Shown here one piece after another: positions 4,097 through 33,225 of a stretch of 38,701 bases of DNA; position 1 is the stretch's first letter; each line of letters starts with the position of its first letter. Both the position numbers and the translations under genes were made by a program. The notes below the pieces were generated by a model. It saw only the letters and a list, made by a program, of their open reading frames with translations. It searched no databases and was not told the DNA's origin. This stretch comes from a virus. The stretch covers positions 1 through 38,701 of the IMG/VR virus record IMGVR_UViG_3300043431_000612; one strand, written 5' to 3'.

Positions 4097-5215
4097 TTAA
4101 CCCACATACTCAAAAGTATAAGTTTTTACTTTTTCTCTAACCCCTGTATTTTTTCTACAAATAGAGTTTTTTCCATATCTTTGAATTTTACTTACAATTC
4201 TTTCTATAACTTTTAGTTTCCATAGATTGCTTTTTGACATCGCATAAAATATAGGGGTGGAAGAGAATTTACACATGACTTTATAATTTTGTGATTTTAT
4301 TATTTTGGCTGTTTCATTAGTTAATAAAATTCCAAGCCCAATACCCGCATAGTCTGGATGTATTACAATACGATTTGCATGCATTATCATTTTTATGCCT
4401 TTGATTTTCATAATATTTCGATATGGAATATAGTTTGCATAACAAATAAAGCCAATTTGATTTTTATCATGAAACAAACCAAATAGTTTGATTAGACCGC
4501 CTGGAATATTTTCGCTCAAATAATGATATTTGCTAAAATATTTCCATGTTTCTCGTCCAACTTCTTTGATATCAAATCTAATTTTTTCTTTTCTTTGATA
4601 GTTTTGCCAAAGAGACCTCCGGTTTTGATACTCTTGTTTGTTACAATCAATTATCCAATCAGCATTTAACCATTCCACTACATCATAATGACAAGAAAGT
4701 AACACAATCCTCTTTTTTTCACGTCTGGCGTGCTTTTGAATGGAATAACTCATGATTTTTCCAACATTTCTATCCACAACACTGGTCCATTCATCAAGTA
4801 TCGTTAAATCACTTTTGCACATTGATAAAGCAGCCTCTGCGCGAGCTTTTTGACCATTTGACAATGTATTAACTGGGCGTATCCAACAAGGAACTTGTGT
4901 CAAGCCTATGCCACATAATATTTTTGCACATGTTTCATAATCATACTCTTTAGGAAATTGCTCAATAATAGGCTTTGTTTCGTCAATAAAAATTTGAAAA
5001 CAATTTTCTCCAAAGATTTTTTGGGCAAGCGTTGTTTTGCCGCTTCCACTTGCCCCTAGAATGAGACCTATATTATAGGGCGTTTGTAAGTCTGCGTTGA
5101 CACTTAATTGATGAGTGGATTTCTTTTGTGTGTCAATATCAAGGGAATCAGCTGCTCTTCTACACCGATAAGAGTTAGAAATGGGACTTTGAAGAGTTAC
5201 ATCATAAGTTTGCAT
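4097..5215 (-). CDS. ABC-type ATPase fused to a GNAT acyltransferase
   Basis: 372 residues in two domains. The first is an ABC-class ATPase: Walker A GASGSGKT (54-61), signature LSNGQ (118-122), Walker B LTILDE (137-142) and H-loop H176. No membrane segments are seen, so it is not a transporter. The second domain (about 212-345) has the GNAT acyl-CoA-binding pattern HPDYAGIGLG (286-295). It overlaps the ParB-like gene upstream by 19 bp. ParB-like proteins beside ATPase/acyltransferase genes occur in phages and have been linked to DNA modification; Mu Mom, which modifies adenine, is also GNAT-fold. A modification or anti-restriction role is inferred, not shown. A terminator and late promoter lie upstream of the pair. 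Confidence 0.8.
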   Translation of the reverse strand: MQTYDVTLQSPISNSYRCRRAADSLDIDTQKKSTHQLSVNADLQTPYNIGLILGASGSGKTTLAQKIFGENCFQIFIDETKPIIEQFPKEYDYETCAKILCGIGLTQVPCWIRPVNTLSNGQKARAEAALSMCKSDLTILDEWTSVVDRNVGKIMSYSIQKHARREKKRIVLLSCHYDVVEWLNADWIIDCNKQEYQNRRSLWQNYQRKEKIRFDIKEVGRETWKYFSKYHYLSENIPGGLIKLFGLFHDKNQIGFICYANYIPYRNIMKIKGIKMIMHANRIVIHPDYAGIGLGILLTNETAKIIKSQNYKVMCKFSSTPIFYAMSKSNLWKLKVIERIVSKIQRYGKNSICRKNTGVREKVKTYTFEYVG

Positions 5216-5991: not shown

Positions 5992-6311
5992 AATTTAATA
6001 TCTTCTCCATACGCTATTTTAAATTTTGCAACAGAGGTTGCTATTTCATAATCCGTCTGACCTCGACTAATACCGCTTATAAAGGCTTCATAGGCATTAG
6101 TAAAGTTAGAATTATCATAGGCCCACCAATCTAATCCTTCCATTTCAACAGCTCCGGTTCTTAAAAGGAAATCCCATAACCTATGGGCATTACGCTCATT
6201 TTTCATTTCAAAATGTTCCCAGTTTTCTCTTTTTAGAGTGTCTTTGCTCATGCAAAGCGAGAACACCCATTGCTTATTCTGAACTATAATATCTTTTATA
6301 TCGCGTTTCAT
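5988..6311 (-). CDS. Hypothetical protein coupled to Q-like gene
   Basis: 107 residues from the ATG at 6311, chosen because it overlaps the stop of the upstream gene as ATGA. The longer frame to 6347 would start inside that gene. Soluble, tryptophan-rich (WVFSL, NWEHFEM, LDWWAYDN), no recognised family. It is coupled at its own end to the 27-residue membrane peptide. Part of the short leftward operon 7336 to 5908. Confidence 0.65.
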   Translation of the reverse strand: MKRDIKDIIVQNKQWVFSLCMSKDTLKRENWEHFEMKNERNAHRLWDFLLRTGAVEMEGLDWWAYDNSNFTNAYEAFISGISRGQTDYEIATSVAKFKIAYGEDIKL

Positions 6312-6754
6312 AGTCCAAACTCCGAAACAATTCTCCCACACAGCCATGCTTTCGCGATGCGAATTCTTTCATTCAAGGTTGTGATAGATATCTTTAGCCG
6401 ATGCGCGGCCTCGGGGCGTGAGCGTTGACCCGCATAATACGTTTTAACCGCCTCCGCCCCACGCTTATCAAAACACATCAATTGCAAAATCAATCGCTCC
6501 ATCTCTTGCGCCTTAGGGTCTTCGGGCGTGGGTTTAAACCCTGCCATGCGTGTTAAGATGCCCCCATTGTCTATAATGCGTTGAATGTTCGATTTTTTAG
6601 AATACCCTAGGTTAATTTTATTCCCATAATAAGCCCATCGCCCCCAATGGTTTAAAAGGGCCTCTATAGTCTCTTGTAGGCGCGTATTATCCTGAAATAC
6701 GGGTTTATCTTGATTCACCCACCCCATCATCTCTATTTGACTGACACTTTGCAT
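6308..6754 (-). CDS. Q-like late antitermination protein
   Basis: 148 residues. The segment LLNHWGRWAYYGNKINLGYS (33-52) and the C-terminal helix-turn-helix (RPEAAHRLKISITTLNERIRIAKAWL) match the pattern of phage antitermination Q proteins, which load on RNA polymerase at the late promoter and let it pass a downstream terminator. The ribosome site GGGAGG is four to five bases from the ATG. Context supports the call: downstream lie a consensus promoter (5877-5904) and a terminator (5773-5800) before the late genes. A sigma-70 region 4-like regulator is the main alternative. Confidence 0.68.
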   Translation of the reverse strand: MQSVSQIEMMGWVNQDKPVFQDNTRLQETIEALLNHWGRWAYYGNKINLGYSKKSNIQRIIDNGGILTRMAGFKPTPEDPKAQEMERLILQLMCFDKRGAEAVKTYYAGQRSRPEAAHRLKISITTLNERIRIAKAWLCGRIVSEFGL

Positions 6755-6965
6755 GCAACCTCCCTGTGTGCATTCTCTCTTTTAATGCTTCTTTCTCACG
6801 AAGCTCCCGTAAATTCCTTTCCCTATTGAACAATTTAAGTAAAACCTCTTTTCTTATTTTTCCTTCTAGAGATTTAATGATCACCGCTTTGTCGTATGGT
6901 GTTTTAGCTAAAACAATACGCATGAAAATACGATTAATTTCAGACTGTTTTAATAAATCGACCAT
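6705..6965 (-). CDS. Hypothetical basic helical protein
   Basis: 86 residues; ribosome site AGGAAAAAG before the ATG at 6965. Rich in lysine, arginine and glutamate, with a likely coiled coil around LLKLFNRERNLRELREKEALKERM. Its last 50 bp overlap the start of the Q-like gene in another frame. No family recognised. Member of the leftward regulatory operon. Confidence 0.6.
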   Translation of the reverse strand: MVDLLKQSEINRIFMRIVLAKTPYDKAVIIKSLEGKIRKEVLLKLFNRERNLRELREKEALKERMHTGRLHAKCQSNRDDGVGESR

Positions 6966-7336
6966 CTTTTTCCTTTTTTTTTCGCAATTTTAATCTTGAG
7001 GGGATAAGCATCTTCCACCTGTTTTTTTTTCAATAAGAAGACAGGGGTTAAGGCCCCTTTGACATCAATAAACTCATAGCGACCGTCAGAATAAAAAATT
7101 AGATTATCAACAATGAGTTTAGTCCCGCTTTTTAAGCGGATGGGGACGTCTGTTAGAAAAAATAAGATTTCTCCGGCTTTTACACTCAATTTAAGAAGTT
7201 GGTGAAACTCTCCTTGTGCCATAGAGGGAAAACGAATGTTATCTATCACAATAGGCTTTGCATTGTATTTGTGTTTCTTTTGTAATTTCCCTTTGATGAG
7301 ATTGGAATATTCGTGAAGCGACATTCTGGTTGTCAT
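6950..7336 (-). CDS. DUF1064-type PD-(D/E)XK nuclease-like protein
   Basis: 128 residues from the ATG at 7336; ATGs at 7345 and 7348 are alternatives because AAGGATGATG lies right there. The pattern KYNAKPIVIDNIRFPSMAQGEF, then IVDNLIFY, then YEFIDVKGALTPVFLLKKKQV matches the phage DUF1064 family: an acidic residue, an E/D-V-K-G strand and a basic helix of a PD-(D/E)XK nuclease core. Such proteins are thought to act in recombination or branched-DNA processing. First gene of the leftward operon that includes the Q-like gene; overlaps the next by 16 bp. Confidence 0.7.
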   Translation of the reverse strand: MTTRMSLHEYSNLIKGKLQKKHKYNAKPIVIDNIRFPSMAQGEFHQLLKLSVKAGEILFFLTDVPIRLKSGTKLIVDNLIFYSDGRYEFIDVKGALTPVFLLKKKQVEDAYPLKIKIAKKKGKRWSIY

Positions 7337-7537
7337 GCAATGCATCATCCTTGATGAAATTTGGTGCCACTATAATGTTTTATGTGAAACTTTCAACCTT
7401 TCTTTTCTTAAAAAAATAAATTTAAAAAAGTAAAAATATAAGTGTTAAGACTGTATATATCTCTTCTTAAGAGACACAGCGCAGAAGAGAATTTTTACTA
7501 AGCAGAAGAATTTAGACTTTTGCGGCCTTGTGATAAG

Positions 7538-7546
7538 TTATCCACA
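7538..7546 (+). promoter_or_regulatory. DnaA box
   Basis: TTATCCACA, a perfect match to the DnaA-binding consensus TTATNCACA, in the gene-free region beside rep. Confidence 0.7.
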
Positions 7547-7563: not shown

Positions 7564-7572
7564 TGTGGAAAA
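7564..7572 (-). promoter_or_regulatory. Second DnaA box, inverted
   Basis: TGTGGAAAA reads TTTTCCACA on the minus strand, fitting TTWTNCACA. It lies 17 bp from the perfect box in the opposite orientation. Confidence 0.55.
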
Positions 7573-7725: not shown

Positions 7726-8574
7726 TTACGGGTCAGGGGGTTTCTTTTTAATTCTGGCAACCAGCATCATGGCGAGCTCGCGCGGGGTTAAATCAGGGTG
7801 GAGTCGTTGTAACTCTTTGACGTTCTCTTCCGATACTTCTTTTTTAGCGTCTAGGAACAGTTGATGGATGGGCTTGGGGTGATACTTTTCTTTTTCAGCG
7901 AGAATAAAGGCATGAATCTCTTTTGCCTTTTCCTTCGTCATTTTTTCAGTACGCTCTTTTTCTTTGAGGATATTTTTAAGTTTACGTTCACGCTCAAGGC
8001 CAATTTCTTTCAAAGAAATGCCCAGTTCCTTAAAAACTTTTTGAGTAAGCTTTTTAATGGCAACGGTTGCCCTTATTTTGCCATAGCGATTCATGACAGC
8101 CCGTGTGCGCACATCCAGATACCCCGCGCGTTTTAAATCGCCTAGAGCACGCATCATGCGCCCGTAAGTAATCGTTTGATGGGGCTCTCTTCCACGATTA
8201 ATTTCTCTAAGCAATGAAAAAGAATCTTTTCCCATGCGCCGGTCTTTTAAGGTGGGGCGGCATGGCATGGCTCCAATATCGGCCATCCCAAAAAATATTC
8301 CAATTTCAAGGGATATAAAATCGGTGAATTGAAAGAGAGCCTCTAAAATAAGTAAGGCGGCTTCTCGGCGTTGGGATTTCTTTTGATGGGTTTCAAGAAA
8401 ATTAAAGGACGATAAAAATTTTTTGGTTTCAGTATAGGCGAGGCGTATATGTTTGGATGCTTTTCGCCCTATGTCTGGGCGCGGACGATGGTGCGTGGGC
8501 GCAATATAGACACAGGGCGTGGTGCGAAGGTGAGCGCACGTACGCGGGCTCAACAGAAAGTTTTGAGACGTCAT
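7726..8574 (-). CDS. rep: RepA-type plasmid replication initiator
   Basis: 282 residues. The centre (about 70-200) has the pattern of IncFII-like RepA initiators: ALLILEALFQFTDF, then TITYGRMMRALGDLKRAGYLDV, a winged-helix DNA-binding segment, then KIRATVAIKKLTQKVFKELGI. The C-terminal third is a lysine/glutamate-rich coiled coil. The start is fixed by GAGGA seven bases upstream and by ATGA overlap with a 48-codon leader ORF. A candidate antisense RNA is encoded against the leader, and DnaA boxes lie just past the stop. No phage-type helicase or polymerase is present, so this is probably the only initiator. Confidence 0.75.
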   Translation of the reverse strand: MTSQNFLLSPRTCAHLRTTPCVYIAPTHHRPRPDIGRKASKHIRLAYTETKKFLSSFNFLETHQKKSQRREAALLILEALFQFTDFISLEIGIFFGMADIGAMPCRPTLKDRRMGKDSFSLLREINRGREPHQTITYGRMMRALGDLKRAGYLDVRTRAVMNRYGKIRATVAIKKLTQKVFKELGISLKEIGLERERKLKNILKEKERTEKMTKEKAKEIHAFILAEKEKYHPKPIHQLFLDAKKEVSEENVKELQRLHPDLTPRELAMMLVARIKKKPPDP

Positions 8575-8717
8575 GATAACGTCCTCAAAAGACTTGCTTT
8601 TTGTTTTTCGCCTTTGGTATAATGCGCTCGTTGACTAGGCATCCTTGAGAATAGTTCGTACAACGGCCGCAAACCCTTATAAAAACCTATCTCAAGGATG
8701 TTGTTTTTTTCCAACAT
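8571..8717 (-). CDS. Rep leader peptide, translationally coupled to rep
   Basis: 48 residues, MLEKNNILEI... ending LLRTLS, read by hand from the ATG at 8717. Its TGA (8573-8571) overlaps the rep ATG (8574-8572) as ATGA. A ribosome site AAGGA lies about nine bases upstream. The whole antisense-RNA gene (8630-8710) and its promoter lie inside this frame on the other strand. IncFII (tap) and IncI/L/M-type plasmids use a leader peptide in this way: its translation opens the rep start and antisense RNA blocks it. The sequence itself is not recognised; the arrangement is the evidence. Confidence 0.7.
   Translation of the reverse strand: MLEKNNILEIGFYKGLRPLYELFSRMPSQRAHYTKGEKQKASLLRTLS
8594..8623 (+). 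promoter_or_regulatory. Promoter of the antisense RNA
   Basis: TTGCTT (8594-8599), 18 bp, then a perfect TATAAT (8618-8623) preceded by TG at 8615-8616 (extended -10). The start is expected near 8630. Confidence 0.75.
8630..8710 (+). ncRNA. Antisense RNA controlling rep (CopA/RNAI-like)
   Basis: Plus-strand RNA of about 80 nt from the extended -10 promoter. CATCCTTGAG (8640-8649) pairs with CTCAAGGATG (8691-8700), extended inward by ATAG/CTAT, giving one long stem with a 36-base loop region, followed at once by TTG and seven T: a complete intrinsic terminator. It is fully complementary to the rep leader mRNA and ends about 55 bases before the rep start. Strong constitutive promoter, single stem-loop and target are the hallmarks of plasmid copy-number RNAs. 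No sequence match to a named RNA is claimed. Confidence 0.75.
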
Positions 8718-8721
8718 CCTT
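8694..8721 (-). promoter_or_regulatory. Alternative hairpin in the rep leader
   Basis: AAGGATGTTG (8694-8703) pairs with CAACATCCTT (8712-8721), a perfect 10-bp stem around an eight-base loop. It shares AAGGATG with the long antisense-RNA stem, so the two structures exclude each other. In the rep mRNA it covers the leader peptide start codon (8717-8715). Confidence 0.6.
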
Positions 8722-8774
8722 CACTTTCCTTTTTTTCCACGTGGTTACTTCCTGTATTCCACTCAAAATTTCGA

Positions 8775-8792
8775 GCACTATAGCATTAGTGC
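8775..8792. promoter_or_regulatory. Inverted repeat over a possible rep promoter
   Basis: GCACTA (8775-8780) and TAGTGC (8787-8792) flank a six-base centre. On the minus strand the repeat contains TATAGT, usable as a -10 for the rep leader transcript. Possible operator, perhaps for the neighbouring RHH protein. Confidence 0.4.
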
Positions 8793-8807: not shown

Positions 8808-9074
8808 CTATCGTTTTTTCTCTTTTTCTTGCTCACACTGGCGGACATAGTCCTCAATAAATTGCTTTAAAATCTCCGAATAGCTTTTTCCATTTTCAGC
8901 AGCCACCGCTTTAAATTTTTTTCTTAACCCTCTTTCCATAACCACTTGAAAGGCAACCCTGTCAGAATCACTGTTTTTTTCTGGATTTATTTTAGACATC
9001 AAGACATCTAGGCTCTTTGATTTTTTAGAAGGCTTTGACTCACTGACTGAAAATACGTCATTATTTTTTTTCAT
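8808..9074 (-). CDS. Ribbon-helix-helix partition protein (ParG-like)
   Basis: 88 residues. A polar, lysine/serine-rich N-terminal tail (1-35) is followed by a ribbon-helix-helix domain (about 40-80): strand VAFQVVM, then helix LRKKFKAVAAENG and helix YSEILKQFIEDYVRQ. This size and layout fit the centromere-binding partner of small ParA proteins. It overlaps the end of parA by 14 bp, so they form one operon. It probably binds the repeat array upstream of parA both as centromere and as autoregulatory operator. Confidence 0.75.
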   Translation of the reverse strand: MKKNNDVFSVSESKPSKKSKSLDVLMSKINPEKNSDSDRVAFQVVMERGLRKKFKAVAAENGKSYSEILKQFIEDYVRQCEQEKEKKR

Positions 9075-9738
9075 TGATGAACTCCATTAACTCTTGACTA
9101 ACCTCATGAATCTCACGCGCTAACTTAAGCCCCCAGGTGGTTTTACTATCCACAATAGGCGAGCCTCGCATCAATGCCTCCACATGATGCACACTTCGAC
9201 TAATTCTATGTTTTAGGATTGGAAACCCAAATTCTTTTTTTAAAGCCGCTCCTATTCCTCGTGATAAGTGCGTGGAAGGCATATCTGCATTAATTAAAAA
9301 AACGCACACCGGAGTGCCTTGATTGACCGACTGACGCTTTTTTAAGAGTGGACATAAAATATCCAATCCATCCATGTCTAGCCCTGAGGGTTGAACAGGA
9401 ATCACCACCATGTCGCTTACACAAATGATTTTTAAAAGCCTCTTATCTATCTCAGAAGAAGCGTCGAGCAATACCTTGGATTCCCCATCTAAAAAAATAA
9501 AATCGTACCTCTTTTTGAGGTTCAACATTTTTTTATCTAAGCCCGCTGAGTCCTCTAACGTCACGACCGGAGGGTGTTCATCGAGTTTTGAGAAATATCG
9601 GTTGAGTGTTTGTTGCGGGTCAGAGTCAATTGCTAAAACGCTCAATCCTTTTTTACAAAAATCTAAACTAAAGTTTTGAGTGCAGGTGGATTTCCCAACC
9701 CCCCCTTTCGGGTTTAAAAATGAAATAATTTTTCCCAT
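9061..9738 (-). CDS. parA: ParA-family partition ATPase
   Basis: 225 residues, the short type Ib form without an N-terminal DNA-binding extension. Deviant Walker A KGGVGKST at 11-18, Walker A' AIDSDPQQT (36-44), and Walker B region DFIFLDGES (74-82). The family drives segregation of low-copy plasmids by dynamic binding to the nucleoid. Operon with the RHH gene. Upstream lie a palindrome (9768-9783) and a TATAGTTT repeat array. A phage carrying its own ParA system is expected to persist as a plasmid. Confidence 0.9.
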   Translation of the reverse strand: MGKIISFLNPKGGVGKSTCTQNFSLDFCKKGLSVLAIDSDPQQTLNRYFSKLDEHPPVVTLEDSAGLDKKMLNLKKRYDFIFLDGESKVLLDASSEIDKRLLKIICVSDMVVIPVQPSGLDMDGLDILCPLLKKRQSVNQGTPVCVFLINADMPSTHLSRGIGAALKKEFGFPILKHRISRSVHHVEALMRGSPIVDSKTTWGLKLAREIHEVSQELMEFINEKK

Positions 9739-9767
9739 CCCTTTGTCCTTTTTGTTATTAGTATAGA

Positions 9768-9783
9768 AATATAGCTCTATATT
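9768..9783. promoter_or_regulatory. Palindrome upstream of parA
   Basis: AATATAG-CT-CTATATT, a perfect 16-bp palindrome ending 30 bp before the parA start. Likely an autoregulatory operator. Confidence 0.55.
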
Positions 9784-9811
9784 AACCTTATAAAGATATT
9801 AATCAAGTTTT

Positions 9812-9891
9812 TATAGTTTTAATAAGTAAATATAAGTATAGTTTTATAGTTAATATAGTTTGATATTAATCATGATTTATATTAAACTATA
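9812..9891. repeat. TATAGTTT repeat array, candidate centromere (parS)
   Basis: TATAGTTT occurs at 9812-9819, 9837-9844 and 9854-9861, with TATAGTTA at 9845-9852 and an inverted AAACTATA at 9884-9891. The last direct and inverted copies form a 12-bp-arm inverted repeat (TTAATATAGTTT and AAACTATATTAA). Short reiterated sites of this sort upstream of a ParA/RHH operon are typical centromeres. The sequence is very AT-rich, so some copies could be chance. Confidence 0.6.
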
Positions 9892-10002
9892 TTAACATTT
9901 GAAAATCTTTAATGATTTTTATTATTTTATCCAATAGTGGATGATAAGTCTTATTCAAAAATGGATAGGTGTGTGAAGGATTGTCACAAATAGGAGATAT
10001 TT

Positions 10003-12396: not shown

Positions 12397-12957
12397 ATGA
12401 AAAAAATTCAAACTATTTTTGAAAGAGATTGGGAAGGGAACAAAAAGGTTGTCGACAAATATATTTCTGGCTTAACCCCTGAAATTTTATTTAAATCTAT
12501 CCCCACAGAAAAGCTCGATGGTACAAACATTCGTGTCACCATCCGAAATCATACTGTGGTTCGTGTTGAAAAAAGACGCAACCCTTCCAAAATAGAAAAG
12601 CATAAAGGAATTGAAGAGCCTTGGTATATTGATGCAAGCGAATCTTCCTCCGAAGACAAGTGGATATATGATGCAGTAAAAAATACAGACTTTAGTGATA
12701 TCGATGAGGGAGAATGGAGCGGGGAAGCCATTGGTAAAAACATTCAAGGCAACCGGCTTAATTTAGAAAAAAATATGGTTATTTTATTTTCTGCAGGAAA
12801 AGCACCGATACTGGTAGACGCTCCAAACAGCTATAAAGAACTCAAAGAGTGGCTACCAAAACAAAAAAGCAAAATTGGTAATGATTGCGGCATTGAAGGT
12901 ATTGTGTGGCATTGTGACAATGGAGACATGTTTAAAATTAAACTGAGGGATTTTTAA
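12397..12957 (+). CDS. RNA ligase
   Basis: 186 residues. The covalent nucleotidyltransferase motif is EKLDGTN with catalytic K39. Downstream RVEKRRNPSK, GEAIGKNIQGNRL (109-121), EGIVWH (167-172) and the C-terminal FKIKL with K180 and K182 correspond to the later motifs of the RNA ligase family. The ligase forms an enzyme-AMP, then joins RNA ends. It is short, an adenylylation domain with no C-terminal extra domain. In phages such enzymes repair tRNAs cut by host nucleases. The tRNA-like sequence at 1888 may or may not be related. Confidence 0.85.
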   Translation: MKKIQTIFERDWEGNKKVVDKYISGLTPEILFKSIPTEKLDGTNIRVTIRNHTVVRVEKRRNPSKIEKHKGIEEPWYIDASESSSEDKWIYDAVKNTDFSDIDEGEWSGEAIGKNIQGNRLNLEKNMVILFSAGKAPILVDAPNSYKELKEWLPKQKSKIGNDCGIEGIVWHCDNGDMFKIKLRDF

Positions 12958-30346: not shown

Positions 30347-31057
30347 CTATTTTTCACGCACGAGTCCTTTGGCTAATAATTCTTTCGCTATAAATTTTGG
30401 AACAAGCTCCCCATTAATCAAAGCCGAATGCACGGAGTTTCCCATTAATTCCTCCCAAGACAGTGCACTATTTACCGATTGGTGGTATTGATGCCAGTGC
30501 TGTGCATATTCGCATTCCTTTGTTTTAGGAAAGCAAGGGACTCCTTGCGTATAGTGCACCAATTTCGCATTCGGGTTAGGATCATCATAACCCACCAAAT
30601 GATTCCATTCAGGGGGTAATAGTCCTATTTCCTCTTCTTTGGCCCACGCTAATCCATGCAAGTTTTTCGCCACTTCAATATAGCCTGGTGTGAGAATTTT
30701 GCACTTGGCACAATTGAAAAGCATAACGGAAGCGCGTTCAAAATTAAGTCTAGGGTCGCTATTTTTCGCCGCCATCACACAATAGTGCTCATCCGCTAAA
30801 TCAAACAGCTTGGAAATATCATCTTTCAATAGCATGTCGATATCTAAAAATAGTCCCCATCCTTCGTAATTACAAAGGTAAGGCACTAAAAAACGTGTGA
30901 AGGTAAAAGGGGTTAAGCCCATGCGTTTTACAGGGAGCTGCTCAATCACCAAGGGTGTAATAGAGACGGGTTTGGAAGATTTGGTGAAAATAGATTGTTG
31001 AAGTACATTATACGAAATCGGTTGACGGTGGTCGTAACCAATAAATATTTTGAGCAT
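30347..31057 (-). CDS. Glycosyltransferase with GT-A fold (GT8-like)
   Basis: 236 residues. MLKIFIGYDHRQPISYNVLQQSI starts a nucleotide-sugar-binding domain; GLFLDIDMLLKDD contains the metal-binding DxD (72-74); later NFERASVMLFNC and LLPPEWNHLVGY match the acceptor half of GT8-like enzymes. It would transfer a sugar from a nucleotide donor to a glycan or protein. AAGGA lies six bases before the start. It belongs to a sugar-modifying cassette (30347-33173) set among the virion genes. Confidence 0.82.
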   Translation of the reverse strand: MLKIFIGYDHRQPISYNVLQQSIFTKSSKPVSITPLVIEQLPVKRMGLTPFTFTRFLVPYLCNYEGWGLFLDIDMLLKDDISKLFDLADEHYCVMAAKNSDPRLNFERASVMLFNCAKCKILTPGYIEVAKNLHGLAWAKEEEIGLLPPEWNHLVGYDDPNPNAKLVHYTQGVPCFPKTKECEYAQHWHQYHQSVNSALSWEELMGNSVHSALINGELVPKFIAKELLAKGLVREK

Positions 31058-31068
31058 GGAGTGTCCTT

Positions 31069-31281
31069 ATGAATAAAAAACTTAGGTTTAAACTAGAATA
31101 CCTTGAGGTTCTCTCAAAAGAGCTTTGTGAGTTTACACAGAAGATTTTCTTTGAAAAAGACAGGAGTTTGATGACGCCAAACGAAAGGAAGATTCTTGAA
31201 AGCTGTGCTGAAAATACAGCAGACTCCATTTATCGCATGGTCACATCAATCCCTAAGAAAATTGAAAAATTTGATTTATAA
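31069..31281 (+). CDS. Small plus-strand hypothetical protein inside the glycan cassette
   Basis: 70 residues, charged and helical (LRFKLEYLEVLSKELCEFTQKIF), no recognised family. GGAG lies seven bases before the ATG. The 11 bp between this start and the divergent glycosyltransferase start act as a ribosome site in both directions (GGAGTGTCCTT one way, AAGGACACTCC the other), which favours it being real. Its end overlaps the methyltransferase stop by 6 bp. It is the only plus-strand gene in the 21-kb late block. Confidence 0.5.
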   Translation: MNKKLRFKLEYLEVLSKELCEFTQKIFFEKDRSLMTPNERKILESCAENTADSIYRMVTSIPKKIEKFDL

Positions 31282-31782
31282 GGGTGCGACTACAAAGATA
31301 ATTTCATTCTTTTCTTCAGTCAAAGAAATAATTTTAAAGTATTGTTTGATTTTGGTTTCCCACCACGCTTTATTTTCCACAATAAGGTGCGCATTTCGCC
31401 CATCTGGAAGAAACTTGTGGGCCTTTGTCGTGCAAGCTGTAAAAAACCCTGCTTTTTGAGTGAGGCTTTTTAAGTGAAATAATACATCATCCAGGCGCAA
31501 AGGTTCGATGTGCTCTAAAACATCGGTACATACCACAATATCCGAAGGCAACGGCATGGCCGCATGTTTTGCAACCGCAGGATCATATTCATGGATATTA
31601 AAAGGCATGTTTCGCGCCAATGAGCTTTTGCCACATCCATAATCCAGTATATCCATGGTGTCGTATTGTGCAGCCAACTTTAAAATGTCTACCATATGTC
31701 GGAACCCGATGGCCCCATAAAACCGATTGTCGCTGTGGAGATTTTGGTTTAATACTTTGTATTCATCTGAAATAAGTTGCAT
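31276..31782 (-). CDS. SAM-dependent methyltransferase
   Basis: 168 residues. MDILDYGCGKSSLA (43-56) is the SAM-binding motif I; VVCTDVLEHIEPLRLDDVLFHL is the motif found in class I methyltransferases of the small-molecule type. A perfect GGAGGTGAT precedes the ATG. It is short, a bare catalytic domain. With glycosyltransferases on either side it probably methylates a sugar or glycan; DNA methylation is unlikely as no NPPY/DPPY motif is seen. It overlaps the TPR-glycosyltransferase gene by 34 bp. Confidence 0.82.
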   Translation of the reverse strand: MQLISDEYKVLNQNLHSDNRFYGAIGFRHMVDILKLAAQYDTMDILDYGCGKSSLARNMPFNIHEYDPAVAKHAAMPLPSDIVVCTDVLEHIEPLRLDDVLFHLKSLTQKAGFFTACTTKAHKFLPDGRNAHLIVENKAWWETKIKQYFKIISLTEEKNEIIFVVAPL

Positions 31783-33173
31783 ATCACCTCCGTCGCTTTA
31801 TCTATTACAGGCTTCCATTCCACTGCCTTGGTTTGCCAAATATTACTCACGCACCCATACCAAGGCATATCCTGCCCATACACGCCCATTTGCCACATGG
31901 CTTGCTTTGGGGTCAGTTGAAGCGTTGGAACCCCGAGAGCCCCTGCCAAATGCACGACGCTTTGTGGAACGGAAATCACATAATCGAGCGCACTCACAAG
32001 TGCTGCGGTTTCATCATAGTCATCAATTGCGTCTTGCCAGTGGTGAATGGTATGTCCGTGTGTTCTTGAAAAACTTTTAATCTCATCCATTGCGCCTTTG
32101 GTGTATTGCAAGCTAATAAATTCGGCATCCAGCTCATCAAAAAGTGTCAAAAACATCTCCAGTGGAATGATGCGCTGCTTAAGATTGGTTTGCTTGGTGC
32201 CCCCCCTCCAGGATAATCCAATTTTCGGTCTAGGGCCTAAGGCATCTAATTTAAGCTGGTATTTTTCTTTAAGAATTTCATCGGCTTTGAGGTAAGGCGT
32301 GCCTGGGAAATCCGATGTTTTATTGCGATAGAATTTTCCAAGCGAGGCCAAGGGGATGCAAGCATCAATGGCGTGAATTTGTGGCCAAGATATCTCTTTA
32401 TCTTTTCTTGTTCCATAAATAGAAATTGTTGGGAAGGACTGTCTAAAAATTTTATAGAGCCTAGGATGTGCATCAAAAATTACACTGCAGTCCTGCATAA
32501 GGTCTGGAATCATGGAGGCAAACATGATCTCATCACCAATACCCTGCTCCCCATACACCACCACTGTTTTTCCTGTCGCCCCATTCCATTCTGGGGTTTT
32601 TAATGACGTATAGTTACGCATTACTTTTTCTGTGGCTCGAACCCCATTGGAATACCAACGCCAACCTTTCTCATATTCACCTTTCTCCAAAAGAGCAAGT
32701 GAACCATTCCAGAATGCGTCAGGATTATTCGGCACAAGTGTGAGAGCGGATTCAATATAGCGAAGAGCTGTGTCTGGTGTGCCTTGTGCAACATACGTGG
32801 ATCCAAGATTCACCATACAATCAGACATATCTTTATCCGATGCGCCAAGCTGTCGCTGAAGTGTCAGCGCGGTTTCAAAAGCGGCGCGGGCCTCAGTGAT
32901 TAATTCATCTTTTTTATAAGCAAAACCAAGATTAAACCAGGCGTTCCAAGAGCTTTTATCCTTTGAAATAACCAGGCGATATAATTCAATAGCGAGCGCG
33001 TTATATTCTTTTTTCATGCATGCAACGGCAATCATAAACAAAATTTGAGAATTATCTTTATCAATATTGAAGACCGCATTAAAGATATTCAGTGCTTGGT
33101 CTAGGCTTTGCGCGTCATCTTTTTTGACCAAATCCATGGCCAAATCAATTTGTTCTTGAAGGTTAATTTTCAT
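31749..33173 (-). CDS. TPR protein fused to a GT9-like glycosyltransferase
   Basis: 474 residues from the ATG at 33173 (AAGGACG upstream); the frame opens at 33215, inside the terminator hairpin. Residues about 1-165 are tetratricopeptide repeats (SSWNAWFNLGFAYKK, DMSDCMVNLGSTYVAQGTPD, NPDAFWNGSLALLEKGEYEK). The rest (about 180-470) is the glycosyltransferase typical of such fusions: VVVYGEQGIGDEIMFASMIP, then KIGLSWRGG, then LVSALDYVISVPQSVVHLAGALGVP. It may glycosylate a protein or surface glycan. First gene after an intrinsic terminator, so the cassette needs read-through or its own promoter. Confidence 0.85.
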   Translation of the reverse strand: MKINLQEQIDLAMDLVKKDDAQSLDQALNIFNAVFNIDKDNSQILFMIAVACMKKEYNALAIELYRLVISKDKSSWNAWFNLGFAYKKDELITEARAAFETALTLQRQLGASDKDMSDCMVNLGSTYVAQGTPDTALRYIESALTLVPNNPDAFWNGSLALLEKGEYEKGWRWYSNGVRATEKVMRNYTSLKTPEWNGATGKTVVVYGEQGIGDEIMFASMIPDLMQDCSVIFDAHPRLYKIFRQSFPTISIYGTRKDKEISWPQIHAIDACIPLASLGKFYRNKTSDFPGTPYLKADEILKEKYQLKLDALGPRPKIGLSWRGGTKQTNLKQRIIPLEMFLTLFDELDAEFISLQYTKGAMDEIKSFSRTHGHTIHHWQDAIDDYDETAALVSALDYVISVPQSVVHLAGALGVPTLQLTPKQAMWQMGVYGQDMPWYGCVSNIWQTKAVEWKPVIDKATEVICNLFQMNTKY

Positions 33174-33185
33174 TTTCGTCCTTGA

Positions 33186-33225
33186 AAATAAAAAGCCCCT
33201 CCTATGCATGCACACAGGAAGGGCT
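33186..33225 (-). terminator. Intrinsic terminator ahead of the glycan cassette
   Basis: AGCCC-c-TCCT (33194-33203) pairs with AGGA-a-GGGCT (33216-33225) with one mismatch; on the minus strand a T-rich tail follows (33193-33186). It separates the head genes upstream from the glycosyltransferase cassette downstream. Confidence 0.85.

Follow-up and report, generated by a model that had tools for sequence, protein, structure and literature searches.

Plasmids of the IncFII and IncI/L/M groups control RepA by means of a leader peptide and an antisense RNA. In the IncFII plasmids R1 and R100 (CopA/CopT, tap, repA), a long interrupted target stem-loop follows an A-run, the opposite-strand RNA is 80-90 nt long, no pseudoknot is involved, translation from a sealed rep start is coupled to that of a 24-codon leader, and a DnaA box lies about 180 nt after rep. 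In the IncI plasmid ColIb-P9 (repY/repZ, Inc RNA) and the IncL/M plasmids pCTX-M3 and pMU604 (repB/repA, RNAI), the antisense RNA is directed against the first stem-loop of the rep leader, a leader peptide is coupled to rep, and a pseudoknot between loop and leader is needed. The REx-C modules of Pseudomonas plasmids (RepJ, RepA-PFP and RepA-Pa, e.g., pPA7790) combine stem-loops, a putative antisense RNA and a leader upstream of rep; the Pseudomonas module, including that of pPA7790, has been shown to be portable, and replication in the laboratory depends on it (PMC5304414).

IncFII typing has been reported on phage-plasmids of the P1 and pMT1 types (PMC11652158), and extrachromosomal mycobacterial prophages are phage genomes with parABS and with RNA- or RepA-based prophage replication (Wetzel 2020, PMC7157519); plasmid-style RNA control on a phage is therefore not new in itself. 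The former are 100-kb enterobacterial elements, whereas the genome described here is a podovirus-like one of 38.6 kb with a divergent Rep, and the latter use an initiator RNA or an actinobacterial RepA rather than an antisense/leader-peptide switch.

The locus that we describe shares the IncFII features listed above, its opposite-strand RNA being predicted and its translational coupling being read from a sequence signature, and it encodes an initiator of a related family. It differs from IncFII in that the leader starts 5' of the target and reads through it (48 versus 24 codons), an extra hairpin lies over the leader start, CopA has no sequence match, RHH and ParA genes take the place of a CopB-like gene, and the setting is a phage genome. 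It resembles the IncI and IncL/M systems in its predicted antisense RNA and probably coupled leader, but their pseudoknot was not found. A homologous Rep occurs in pPA7790 (L006) and an ATGA-type junction in Pseudomonas luteola relatives of the REx-C modules; unlike these modules, which have three short stem-loops and a GC-rich terminator hairpin, the locus has one long R1-like stem. We consider it likely that the locus serves a phage-plasmid as its module for copy-number control and initiation, with antisense/leader control like that of IncFII (R1/R100). The interest of the module is its phage setting, its read-through leader and the competing hairpin over the start codon.

Genome organization

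The window, by which we mean the whole stretch of DNA analysed, is the virus record IMGVR_UViG_3300043431_000612 (38,701 bases). Its ends overlap exactly over 127 bases; the genome is therefore circular and about 38.6 kb long. Virion genes for a P22-like portal (2e-110), a capsid protein (2e-81) and an SU10-type adaptor are accompanied by plasmid replication and partition genes, which form the minus-strand series parA, RHH, leader and rep. Because a circular record combines these two sets of genes, the window looks like a phage-plasmid; the same identity, proposed in the preliminary description, is well supported by the circularity, the P22-like portal and capsid, and the ParA-RHH pair adjoining rep. 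The features of the locus are as follows.

9061-9738, minus strand: ParA-family partition ATPase (NF041546, 7.7e-36; phrog_164, 5e-31)
8808-9074, minus strand: RHH (Arc/ParG-like) protein, partner of ParA (RHH_10, 7.7e-6; phrog_582)
8775-8792, minus strand: palindrome with a TGCTATAGT extended -10, candidate rep mRNA promoter/operator (inverted repeat)
8726-8732, minus strand: leader Shine-Dalgarno sequence AAAGGAA (-5.6 kcal/mol, 8 nt from the start)
8571-8717, minus strand: 48-codon leader ORF, its stop overlapping the rep start as ATGA
8694-8721, minus strand: hairpin A, whose 10-bp stem covers the start codon of the leader; CATCCTT is common to it and SL-I (folding)
8640-8700, minus strand: SL-I, the target stem-loop of the rep mRNA, with apical UUUGCGG and a long interrupted stem (folding)
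8630-8710, plus strand: predicted antisense RNA (about 81 nt), a single long stem-loop with T7 (8704-8710) at its end; start predicted from the -10
8594-8623, plus strand: antisense promoter, TTGCTT (8594-8599), 18-nt gap, extended -10 TGGTATAAT (8615-8623); from sequence and motif counts
8561-8590, minus strand: hairpin sealing the rep Shine-Dalgarno sequence (8582-8586) and AUG, UUUUGAG.ACGU / ACGUCUCAAAA (opening energy)
7726-8574, minus strand: rep, replication initiator of 282 aa, predicted to have a winged-helix core and a long basic helix (profile, NCBIfam, AlphaFold2)
7564-7572, minus strand: weaker second DnaA box, 153 nt after the rep stop
7538-7546, plus strand: consensus DnaA box TTATCCACA, starting 179 nt after the rep stop
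7395-7460: AT-rich stretch past the DnaA box, by its layout a candidate for the region where the origin unwinds

Upstream of parA, positions 9756-9930 are AT-rich and hold many TATAGTTT/AATATAG repeats together with a 24-bp near-perfect palindrome (9849-9896); the ParA/RHH pair may have its partition site here. Portal and capsid proteins identical to those of the window are encoded by two further contigs. Searches with Rep, ParA, portal, capsid, the Sak4-like protein and two stem DNA patterns found no close relative; in the other phage relatives, many of them fragments, rep or par was not found, and the matches to the stem patterns carry no Rep.

Replication initiator and predicted origin

A Pfam scan of Rep gave no match. 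The NCBIfam model RepA_IncFII_LM aligned with residues 133-220 at 18.3 bits (E = 0.0015), far below its curated cut-off of 70 bits, so that Rep falls outside that family; the model matched three of the eight members of the Rep family scanned (best, 1.5e-8). In tblastn, Rep matched a Methylomagnum plasmid (2e-6) and, weakly, plasmids of Pseudomonas, Stutzerimonas and Methylocaldum as well as Vibrio phages. Through an alignment of these matches, 42 further loci were collected (8 viral contigs and 34 genome contigs, mostly gammaproteobacterial and plasmid-like). The family profile, built without the window protein, matched Rep over residues 12-262 with 105.9 bits (E = 7e-34), which places it in the gammaproteobacterial plasmid Rep family of pPA7790/RepA-Pa. 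The same profile gave about 45-48 bits with the Vibrio phage Reps and 13 bits (1.5e-5) with R100 RepA; direct BLAST of Rep against R100 RepA found nothing.

The AlphaFold2 model (pLDDT 77.9) consisted of a winged-helix core and a long basic helix. A fold search in the PDB returned winged-helix look-alikes only (best E, 0.2), and one strong match was to an unnamed viral protein, A0A219YAM3 (2.7e-8). We conclude that the predicted rep product is a real, very divergent plasmid initiator that is distantly related to RepA_IncFII/LM and is not a member of it. Its occurrence here extends to phages a poorly annotated initiator family, mostly labelled 'hypothetical' in the records.

A distant Rep homologue, annotated as hypothetical, is also encoded by Vibrio phage-plasmids of 36-38 kb (L004, L005, L010 and L077-L079: K303, VPHZ6, pVPGX2, p-ED287 and a V. 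cidicii plasmid), a group of 82 phage records and several plasmids with homologous Rep. These elements have a conserved antisense-type GC-rich stem-loop that varies compensatorily, and CTGCAAG before rep is strictly conserved; in phage K303, a 9-bp loop-to-leader pairing was found that none of 300 shuffles equalled.

Upstream of rep, an antisense-terminator stem is present in about half of the relatives of the window Rep. Control within this one Rep family seems to be of two kinds or more, and the comparison suggests that the control module has been swapped between Rep homologues. In Methylococcales loci (L020, L026, L031, L035 and L045), an Xre-like gene lies near rep, mostly without an antisense stem.

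The layout downstream of rep resembles an IncFII oriR. The distance from the rep stop to the consensus DnaA box (179 nt) compares with 177 nt after repA in R100 and with 110-223 nt in several relatives; in R1, the corresponding DnaA box belongs to oriR (PMC5883639).

Predicted antisense cassette and competing hairpins

The predicted antisense promoter has a perfect extended -10 and a poor -35 (3/6). By itself, TGNTATAAT was not significant (2 in the window versus 1.5 expected). The combination of an extended -10, a stem of at least 9 bp and a T-run within 160 nt, defined after the site had been seen, occurred once in the window, at this very site, and in none of 200 dinucleotide shuffles. The plus-strand RNA folded with -20.2 kcal/mol (z = -2.8); the stem of the cassette is formed by 8640-8650 paired with 8690-8700 and reaches further inward on the mRNA strand.

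On that strand, SL-I (8640-8703, folded alone) gave -30.5 kcal/mol (z = -7.84; 0/200 shuffles), in the shape of a long stem with small internal loops, and the antisense strand folded less well. At the same settings, the target structures of R100 and ColIb-P9 gave -18.4 and -27.6 kcal/mol, respectively, and an A-run precedes the target structure on the mRNA strand here and in both plasmids. An antisense cassette over the rep leader thus faces a strong target stem-loop, as in IncFII. The Rfam covariance model of CopA (RF00042) had no match in the window, and the R100 control matched; none of the Rfam families matched the window, a loose threshold giving chance matches only.

Hairpin A has a perfect 10-bp stem and an 8-nt loop (z = -3.6 in context). 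Perfect 10-bp hairpins were found at 3 places in the window versus 0.8 per shuffle and are therefore rare, not unique. Hairpin A and SL-I both use CATCCTT and are mutually exclusive. Long contexts favour SL-I over hairpin A (outer pair about 0.97 versus about 0.14); short contexts do not.

Leader ORF and rep translation start

The preliminary description had reported a 48-codon ORF whose TGA overlaps the rep ATG at 8574, an opposite-strand promoter with a long stem and a seven-T run, and a second hairpin over the leader AUG that competes with the first for the same bases; our analysis recovered all three. The leader Shine-Dalgarno sequence equals in quality those of rep, RHH and parA. The leader peptide had no match in protein family searches, and no relative closer than about 33% identity carries it. 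In the P. luteola/P. asuensis relatives, a 25-codon leader has the same ATGA junction and the same -5.6 kcal/mol site. The internal AUG at codon 26, the usual position of an IncFII leader start, was rejected as a start, having no Shine-Dalgarno sequence. The leader's one AUG with a ribosome site is thus 5' of the target, and the leader therefore reads through it.

The rep start lies in an 11-bp hairpin, UUUUGAGGACGUUAUCAUGACGUCUCAAAA (8561-8590), which was absent from the preliminary description. Opening the rep start requires 12.8 kcal/mol, tied for the highest of the 33 gene starts in the window, and opening the leader start requires 2.9 kcal/mol, among the cheapest. The corresponding leader/rep energies were 10.0/15.0 kcal/mol for tap/repA of R100 and 4.2/10.9 kcal/mol for repY/repZ of ColIb, and the Pseudomonas plasmids gave 7.3/22.5 and 8.0/11.4; all of these controls showed the same order as the window. 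An open leader start, a sealed rep start and an ATGA junction between the two ORFs form an IncFII-like signature, which supports IncFII-style, leader-coupled translation that would be blocked by the antisense RNA.

Proposed mechanism and alternative explanations

Under IncFII-like control, translation of the leader would melt the rep hairpin, and the ribosomes would re-initiate at the AUG that overlaps the leader stop. The antisense RNA (about 81 nt), made constitutively, would bind the target stem-loop through loop contact. The duplex would start 5 nt past the leader AUG, within the footprint of an initiating ribosome; we therefore propose that leader initiation, and hence rep, is blocked. 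More genome copies would give more antisense RNA and less Rep, so that copy number would be fixed while the phage is a plasmid. By hiding the leader start and competing with SL-I, hairpin A may further damp leader translation or have a role in its timing.

A more elaborate version of this model is tentative, and we hold it to be somewhat doubtful: since the leader begins before the antisense target and its translation continues across it, and since its start codon lies in hairpin A, which vies with the target stem for CATCCTT, initiation at the leader, folding of the target and binding of the antisense RNA would form a three-way switch that runs copy number on a small podovirus-like phage-plasmid. 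In IncFII, IncI and IncL/M plasmids, by contrast, the best leader start is beyond the target; it was 3' of the target stem-loop in R100, ColIb-P9, pCTX-M3 (an ATG leader) and the Pseudomonas relatives. A review of pCTX-M3 places the RNAI target within repB (PMC8125031), and a read-through leader may therefore have a precedent.

The 48-codon leader could instead be incidental, the antisense RNA controlling rep while the inverted repeats act directly, as a transcription attenuator or a translation block, with no leader coupling. Chance could plausibly yield an in-frame extension of 22 codons over SL-I, the nearest Rep relatives (the Methylomagnum plasmid and viral contig L012) are without such a leader structure, some REx-C modules have no leader gene, and the related RepJ replicon still replicated after in-frame removal of most of its putative leader (PMC5304414). 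This explanation is nevertheless unlikely, given the good Shine-Dalgarno sequence and cheap opening of the leader start and the sealed, ATGA-joined rep start; a sense-strand terminator, looked for in the leader, was not found. It is harder still to believe that the inverted repeats serve only as DNA, as operators or as partition sites recognized by the RHH protein or ParA, and that no antisense RNA is made. The RHH and parA genes are immediately upstream and the region is rich in palindromes, but the repeat is interrupted and asymmetric and is far more stable when folded as mRNA than as the complementary strand, the promoter and T7 stand in the right order, and the AT-rich repeats upstream of parA are the better candidate for a partition site. 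We regard this explanation as very improbable.

The preliminary description had assigned the locus to the logic of both IncFII and IncI/L/M plasmids. Its IncFII half is supported computationally, by an initiator related to RepA_IncFII/LM, an IncFII-like origin, a leader that overlaps rep as ATGA and has a good Shine-Dalgarno sequence, a sealed rep start and a predicted antisense cassette. The other half, in which leader translation would permit a pseudoknot between the SL-I loop and the sequence before rep and so activate rep, was not borne out and is very unlikely to apply. The loop UUUGCGG does resemble the UUGGCG loops, and pairing is possible between GGGUUUGC and GCAAGUCU immediately ahead of the rep Shine-Dalgarno sequence, but the best pairing (-4.7 kcal/mol, with wobbles) was equalled by 370 of 500 shuffles. 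The same comparison gave 6/300 for ColIb-P9, 1/300 for Methylobacter contig L038, 10/300 for pPA7790 and 0/300 for Vibrio phage K303, and the Rfam model PK-repZ (RF01087) matched the ColIb control and had no match in the window. A hint of a pseudoknot from the Vibrio phage-plasmids, which share GCAAGTCT before rep, was rejected on the shuffles and because the Vibrio CTGCAAG does not covary with the loop. With no pseudoknot above shuffles, IncFII is the nearest of the known types.

If IncFII-like control operates here, a small tailed phage maintains itself at low copy in plasmid form by means of an R1-like antisense brake beside a partition operon, and such phages would be predicted to be incompatible with plasmids having the same target loop. 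The locus would also be a compact system for asking how an antisense brake is released on turning lytic.

Other genes of the window

At 30347-33215, glycosyltransferase-like and methyltransferase-like genes and a gene for a 488-aa TPR protein lie amid the structural genes, between those for capsid and adaptor, a placement that is unusual for a P22-like head module. A 372-aa protein (4097-5215; phrog_11143, function unknown) has an N-terminal ABC-ATPase and a C-terminal GNAT acetyltransferase, and a small RNA-ligase-like protein is encoded at 12397-12957 (Pfam RLIG1, 9e-10). An antitermination Q-like gene and a DUF1064 Holliday-junction-resolvase-like gene (6308-7348) are located directly beyond the predicted origin; the lytic control region therefore abuts the plasmid origin.
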